Part shown: positions 30,466 to 31,407 of the stretch, in pieces
Numbering within the stretch: the stretch's first letter is position 1
Layout: every line of letters begins with the position of its first letter
Assembly: GCA_021802205.1 (NCBI GenBank)
Contig: JAKAAT010000009.1
Location: 1 to 42,241, forward strand
DNA: 42,241 bases
Direction of reading: 5' to 3'
DNA from: Thermoplasmata archaeon
GTDB taxonomy: Archaea > Thermoplasmatota > Thermoplasmata > Thermoplasmatales > Thermoplasmataceae
Notes under the pieces: generated by a model
What the model saw: only the letters and a program-made list of their open reading frames with translations
Told to the model about the DNA's origin: nothing
Database searches by the model: none
Translations under genes and position numbers: made by a program

Positions 30466-30924
30466 TTAATTTATTTTATTCAGGTTATCTGCAATGCCTT
30501 TTATTTTCTGTTTTTCATCAACATTCAATTTTTCCATGTTATCGAGCAAATACTGGGAATAATTATCCATTTGAACTATTATATCATCCAGATCATTCTT
30601 TTTCCCTGAAATTTCATCCCACGGAAAGTACGAATCACTGAGCAATTTTTTGCCTTCTTCAGTAGTTTTATAATATTTTTTATTATCTTTCTCTGAAAGC
30701 TGAAGATAATTGTCGTTGAACAATGAAGTTAACGTTGGATATATTATACCGGGTGATGGTACCCAGTTTCCCCTTGTAATTTCGCCGATTTTATTCGCTA
30801 TATCAGCTCCGGTAACCTCATTTTCCGATGCTATGCCCAGTATCCAGTACTTAAGCCCAAATCCACGCATACTATGCATATGATGCATTTCGCCGTGCAT
30901 ATATTTACCTCTTGGTCCAAACAT
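30466..30924 (-). CDS. PadR-family transcriptional regulator
   Basis: A DNA-binding repressor candidate. The preferred start is ATG 30924 (152 residues), because GGTGAG sits just before it and overlaps the stop of the upstream ORF; the ORF track start at 30951 lies further up. After a His/Met-rich leader (MHGEMHHMHSMRG) comes the PadR winged helix: GLKYWILGIASENEVTGADI, then PSPGIIYPTLTSLFNDNYL and a basic wing KKYYKTTEEGKK. A C-terminal helix (about 115-150) would dimerise. The His-rich leader could sense metal. Probably autoregulated through the GATATC array upstream. Confidence 0.85.
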   Translation of the reverse strand: MFGPRGKYMHGEMHHMHSMRGFGLKYWILGIASENEVTGADIANKIGEITRGNWVPSPGIIYPTLTSLFNDNYLQLSEKDNKKYYKTTEEGKKLLSDSYFPWDEISGKKNDLDDIIVQMDNYSQYLLDNMEKLNVDEKQKIKGIADNLNKIN

Positions 30925-30932
30925 TTTCTCAC

Positions 30933-31157
30933 CTAATATCTTCCATGGCATCCGTGGTGCTGTTCATGCCTGCAGCGATGTTCTTCATTATGGCACCCAC
31001 CATGCTGATGCATGTGTTCATGAAATTCATGGTGCATCCCCTCATCACCGTAGAACCCTCTTCCGGATTCCATGTTCCTGTATTCTCTGCCTTCTTCGCA
31101 GTCTCTTCCGTATCTCTTACCTTCCTCATTGTTTTCCATATATCTTCTTCCATACAT
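30933..31157 (-). CDS. Small His-rich protein, possible metal binder
   Basis: Seventy-four residues from ATG 31157, which follows a GGTGAT ribosome site. The first half is charged (Glu/Arg-rich); the second half is densely His-rich with two cysteines (HHEFHEHMHQHGGCHNEEH), as in metal-storage or metallochaperone tails. Its TAG stop overlaps the ribosome site of padR, so the two would be co-translated. An alternative overlapping frame (30929..31153, 74 residues, Met-rich) is also open; I favour the His-rich frame for its ribosome site and because the PadR N-terminus is also His-rich. No family recognised. Confidence 0.5.
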   Translation of the reverse strand: MYGRRYMENNEEGKRYGRDCEEGREYRNMESGRGFYGDEGMHHEFHEHMHQHGGCHNEEHRCRHEQHHGCHGRY

Positions 31158-31167
31158 TTCTATCACC

Positions 31168-31214
31168 AGATATCACTTAATGATATCTAATATAGATATC
31201 ACATTAAGATATTT
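31168..31214. promoter_or_regulatory. Operator-like GATATC repeat array before the His-rich/padR operon
   Basis: Four 8-bp half-sites start every 13 bp: AGATATCA (31168), TGATATCT (31181), AGATATCA (31194) and a weaker AGATATTT (31207). Neighbouring half-sites 1-2 and 2-3 form perfect 8-bp inverted repeats around 5-bp spacers. The array sits at the probable TATA/start region of the minus-strand operon, so binding would block transcription. PadR autoregulation is the simplest inference. Confidence 0.6.
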
Positions 31215-31407
31215 AAATGTTATCATTCCATTCTTATTGTCATTCCATCGCATATTCTTCTATCACCCCAATTACACAATATTTGGTGGTGCTTTTGAAT
31301 TAATAATTTTAATTATATTTTTAATTCTAATGAATTTAAAAAATCCTCTCTTGTTAACAGGCACGGCATAAAAAGAAATATTAATATGACAGTGAAAATT
31401 GATAGTT

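Follow-up and report, generated by a model that had tools for sequence, protein, structure and literature searches.

A 13-bp-phased GATATC array at an archaeal padR promoter, a probable autorepression operator

Organization of the locus

The window is the whole 42,241-nt stretch of contig JAKAAT010000009.1 (assembly GCA_021802205.1), from a Thermoplasmata archaeon of the family Thermoplasmataceae. On its minus strand, an array of four half-sites extends from a TATA box to the Shine–Dalgarno sequence of a 74-aa ORF, which is followed by padR. The features in the direction of transcription are as follows.

31210..31217, minus strand, TATA box of the promoter of the His-rich ORF and padR (TTTAAATA, assigned from sequence), overlapping h1
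31207..31214, minus strand, half-site h1, AGATATTT on the plus strand and AAATATCT on the minus strand, degenerate and fused to the TATA box
31194..31201, minus strand, half-site h2, AGATATCA on the plus strand, internal, with the palindromic core GATATC
31181..31188, minus strand, half-site h3, TGATATCT on the plus strand, internal, with the predicted transcription start inside it
31168..31175, minus strand, half-site h4, AGATATCA on the plus strand, adjoining the Shine–Dalgarno sequence
31162..31167, minus strand, Shine–Dalgarno-like GGTGAT (assigned from sequence), conserved as GGTGA or GGAGG in most orthologues
30933..31157, minus strand, 74-aa His-rich ORF (12 His, 4 Cys) that comes first in the unit
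30466..30924, minus strand, padR, 152 aa, a winged-helix PadR protein with its own Shine–Dalgarno sequence GGTGAG

The TATA box is found at the same position in the orthologues, as TTTAAATATC or TTTATATATC. Transcription would be expected to start about 25 nt from it, hence within h3. The 74-aa ORF runs from an ATG at 31157 to a TAG stop at 30933, and its differences from the orthologue in genome G003 are in excess at the third codon position (10/7/27). The ORF-finder start of padR at 30951 is not conserved; the starts of the orthologues align with M10, and the ATG at 30924 is the one that they use. A T-rich tract lies 3′ of padR, followed by succinyl-CoA-ligase-like genes. Sister PadRs carry the same MYG(K/R)R start as the 74-aa ORF, but fused to PadR itself, so that this ORF, situated between the array and padR, may represent a detached N-terminal extension of PadR, possibly with a role in metal binding.

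The PadR assignment was supported by both profile and structure comparisons. The protein matched Pfam PF03551 with an E value of 6.5e-13 and 48.9 bits, above the gathering cutoff of 27. An AlphaFold2 model of the monomer (mean pLDDT 79, pTM 0.52) had the N-terminal wHTH and C-terminal helical part of the PadR fold and was confident except for residues 1–20 and a stretch near residue 105. The best fold matches in the PDB were PadR structures (E 2.5e-5), and the structures matched included Rv3488, Bacillus subtilis PadR with its operator, LmrR and TA0346.

Structure of the array

A sequence-only reading of the window had placed four half-sites at 31168, 31181, 31194 and 31207, and these were present at a pitch of exactly 13 bp. 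It had also described all adjacent copies as perfect inverted repeats. Counting from 31168 upwards, this was correct for pairs 1–2 and 2–3; the fusion of the fourth copy to the TATA box (minus strand, TTTAAATATC) limits pair 3–4 to 6/8 matching positions. Since the GATATC unit is a palindrome, single copies are of ambiguous orientation. The most symmetric and most conserved unit of the array is the central 21-bp TGATATCTATATTAGATATCA (h2–h3), and the 1.75-Mb genome contains no second copy of the exact 21-bp palindrome. The two outer pairs (h1–h2 and h3–h4) are direct copies, 26 bp apart.

When the window was scanned for four GATATC units at pitch 13, a score of 23/24 was obtained at 31169, and the maximum anywhere in the window for the other pitches from 8 to 30 was 18 of 24. 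The best four-unit score in 2 Mb of first-order Markov sequence was likewise 18/24. The array is thus more ordered than AT-rich background, as had been asserted from the letters alone.

Conservation in relatives

Relatives collected by protein similarity share a fixed order of elements: a TATA box that runs into h1, the half-sites h2, h3 and h4 at 13 bp, a Shine–Dalgarno sequence and the ATG. This arrangement is present in Acidiplasma aeolicum and in Acidifodinimicrobium, Parvarchaeota and Nanoarchaeota bins, the DPANN arrays being less perfect than the others. Among close relatives the sequence upstream of the TATA box is divergent, and the stretch from the TATA box to the Shine–Dalgarno sequence is kept. 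The genes flanking the array and padR vary among orthologue genomes, and padR is the sole gene that accompanies the array across genera, families and phyla. This comparative evidence ties the array to padR and not to its neighbours. The array is unlikely to control the divergently oriented aldehyde dehydrogenase gene, since the orthologues have another neighbour in its place.

At the Parvarchaeota (L051, 2687–5230) and Nanoarchaeota (L053, 2911–5483) loci, padR with its GATATC-type array is directly followed by ABC-2 transporter genes, which suggests gene exchange with Thermoplasmata and a role in efflux.

The assembly of the window is 85 % complete and holds one contig, C74, that is probably mis-binned. 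Over 11.9 kb, padR and array included, this contig (positions 4000–16000) matches genome G004 at 99.7 % identity, and for this reason its padR–array copy was dropped as a confirming paralogue from the same genome.

Recovery from DNA alone and pitch of the array

A three-hexamer pattern holding no protein information was run on 390 Thermoplasmatota genomes. It returned many chance two-mismatch matches and one coherent group, TATATCG-N5-CGATATCG-N5-CGATATT, in families f27, f30 and f35, with a further match in f15. In these four families the arrays occupy the interval that separates the TATA box from the ATG, at the 5′ end of PadR ORFs; the scan thus recovers 13-bp arrays at divergent padR genes of four other families. 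A PadR ORF was present at the site in 8/30 scan matches for which loci were returned, and two more such sites were taken manually. Altogether, 13-bp arrays of the TATATCGAAATTCGATATCGAATTTCGATATT type were observed at PadR ORF 5′ ends in ten loci.

Half-site pairs were then counted in 39 PadR promoters, 9 of which had been chosen by the 13-bp pattern itself. Pairs 13 bp apart were present in 26/39 and pairs 26 bp apart in 26/39, against about 0.4 and 0.2 expected from mononucleotide shuffles, values whose significance is approximate and inflated because the sequences are phylogenetically related; 14-bp pairs were present in 8/39. Among promoters found by protein search alone, 13-bp and 14-bp arrays sit in different PadR groups, and in some PadR clades the array is absent or has a 14-bp pitch. 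GATATC hexamers at 14-bp pitch were seen in the PadR promoters of six loci, with three exact copies in one of them (L034). The pitch label clusters on the PadR protein tree, from which this clustering alone was used, as two long branches (L143 and L129), partly misread frames, are badly placed.

Specificity and other candidate targets

The sequence-only reading would have been refuted by the repeat being common in unrelated intergenic regions, and this was not the case. In 10 congeneric genomes, all but two isolated occurrences of exact GATATCN7GATATC were at padR promoters; a reversed control pattern occurred once in the same genomes. A 49-bp sequence-only profile run on 61 genomes gave matches of E<1e-6 at padR promoters only. 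Of the 22 weaker matches (E up to about 0.02) in genomes that had not been used for training, 11 were at PadR gene starts. The genome-wide motif search that had been proposed for defining a regulon recovered the array at the padR promoter and no further strong site in the same genome. The weak matches examined within the genus were mostly inside coding genes, such as hisH-like and metallo-hydrolase-like genes, and two very close genomes had in common a weak site 5′ of an aldo/keto reductase.

Two other weak profile matches, in relatives G016 and G018, correspond to GATATC arrays at the beginning of genes for ABC-transporter ATPases (L198 around 1493 and L199 around 3017). These genes are candidate PadR targets besides padR.

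Proposed mechanism and alternatives

The 13-bp-phased array is very probably the operator at which PadR, whose gene lies just 3′ of it on the minus strand, represses its own expression. The proposal of a PadR operator over the TATA and start region, and hence of autoregulation, gained support from comparative genomics, in that array and padR promoter are kept together while the neighbours change. In the proposed mechanism, PadR dimers would bind GATATC half-sites spaced 13 bp apart, and the array would accept more than one dimer through half-sites common to neighbouring dimer sites. Bound dimers would cover everything from the TATA box through the transcription start and along the leader as far as the Shine–Dalgarno sequence, a position from which autorepression by blocking of TBP/TFB binding and RNA polymerase recruitment would be expected. 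A ligand releasing PadR would derepress the promoter. Such a ligand could be a metal or some other toxic substance, in view of the His/Met-rich N-terminal part and the array-linked ABC-exporter genes in relatives; a possible response to metal is suggested by the His-rich ORF and the His/Met-rich N-terminus.

The claim that dimer sites overlap received indirect support from a difference between terminal and internal hexamers. Internal hexamers were perfect GATATC in 35/37 cases. First hexamers had lost the outer G in 22/23 and kept the inner base in 21/23, and last hexamers had kept the outer C in 16/23, lost it in 7/23 and kept the inner G in 23/23, an asymmetry that is partly confounded, as the TATA box may account for the deviation of h1, and the start codon or Shine–Dalgarno sequence may constrain the last hexamer. 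This pattern would be expected if a dimer recognized ATATC-N7-GATAT centred on each linker, with internal hexamers serving two sites; full palindromy of the internal hexamers would let neighbouring dimer sites share half-sites and the array hold more than one dimer. Neighbouring sites are offset by about 86 degrees around the helix and alternate sites by about 171 degrees, so dimers could conceivably load from different faces, or two of them could sit on opposite sides of the helix. As a generalization that we put forward tentatively, an archaeal PadR subclass present throughout Thermoplasmatota and in acidophilic DPANN could form a chain of dimers sharing palindromic half-sites at a fixed 13-bp pitch (14-bp in sister clades). 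Such a chain would clamp the entire region that extends from the TATA box to the start codon, and the protein clade would set the pitch.

A PadR operator bound without shared half-sites or cooperativity, by one dimer on h2–h3 or by two on h1–h2 and h3–h4, is somewhat doubtful but a serious contender. The prominence of the central 21-bp unit and the direct repetition of the outer pairs are both in keeping with independent binding, as is the 1:1 dimer:operator binding of LmrR at the lmrR operator (PMC5428041). However, the three-hexamer arrays of the distant families are too short for two full dimers without sharing, and palindromy is retained by internal hexamers and lost by terminal ones.

Use of the sites by a DNA-binding protein other than PadR is improbable. 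The link between PadR and the array is one of position and conservation, which leaves room for such a protein, but padR is the one gene that stays linked to the array when families and phyla are compared, and the clustering of 13-bp and 14-bp pitch on the PadR tree also argues for PadR itself.

Rather than acting as DNA, the transcribed h3–h4 could form an mRNA hairpin (AGATATCA-CTTAA-TGATATCT) that controls translation at the Shine–Dalgarno sequence, and the perfect 8-bp stem with its 5-nt loop directly before GGTGAT would suit this role. This reading is disfavoured and very unlikely, since 14 sequences contain no compensatory change and the terminal pair is broken, uncompensated, in three of them. 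Moreover, h2 is conserved equally although it lies upstream of the expected start, and distant families include arrays that reach the ATG, so that the transcripts there are probably leaderless.

Chance AT-rich repeats, for which the 37 % G+C of the window and its 24 GATATC might speak, are contradicted by the Markov simulations and refuted by the cross-genome conservation, leaving a negligible likelihood.

Comparison with known systems

YqjI/NfeR of Escherichia coli, a bacterial PadR-family regulator, has an N-terminal part rich in His and several sites around its own promoter, and it controls a divergent reductase gene. TA0346 of Thermoplasma acidophilum is a PadR-like protein of solved structure (PDB 3elk; fold match E 8.7e-4), described just as a putative regulator. 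PadR function in archaea was stated as unknown in a Pyrococcus study (PMC4706686), and the literature searched, with subscription papers mostly outside its scope, held no description of an archaeal PadR operator or GATATC array. Autoregulated PadRs are already known, and the phased archaeal array is without earlier description in that literature. What the sequence alone yields is a specific putative operator, a phasing rule and a link from array to regulator, and the cultivated relative Acidiplasma carries the array. The array can also serve as a query for other genes under PadR control, candidates for which are the ABC-exporter genes in two relatives.

RosR of Halobacterium salinarum, also an archaeal winged-helix regulator, recognizes a palindrome of 20 bp near the start codon (PMC4287449). 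It differs in being weakly similar to PadR/MarR (PMC3443676), in its GC-rich motif and in having no array. The canonical bacterial PadR motif is ATGT/ACAT (PMC3506622, PMC5428041); the array does not contain the ATGT-N8/10-ACAT inverted repeat, its half-site being GATATC at 13-bp pitch.

LmrR of Lactococcus lactis (PadR-s2) is, like the regulator proposed here, a winged-helix dimer of the PadR family and a repressor of its own promoter, and several dimers were reported on the lmrR promoter by atomic force microscopy (PMC4534193). In contrast to the present array, its motif is ATGT-N8/10-ACAT (PMC5428041), its promoter is of the bacterial −10/−35 type and no phased array of palindromic hexamers has been described for it. 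cdPadR1 of Clostridioides difficile has a promoter with two inverted repeats, one overlapping promoter elements, to which the protein itself binds in several shifted complexes (PMC5050560); its half-sites are TACT/AGTA with N11-12 and loose spacing, compared with GATATC at exact 13-bp pitch here. Binding of multiple dimers to the promoter of a PadR gene by its own product therefore has precedent in both LmrR (PMC4534193) and cdPadR1 (PMC5050560).
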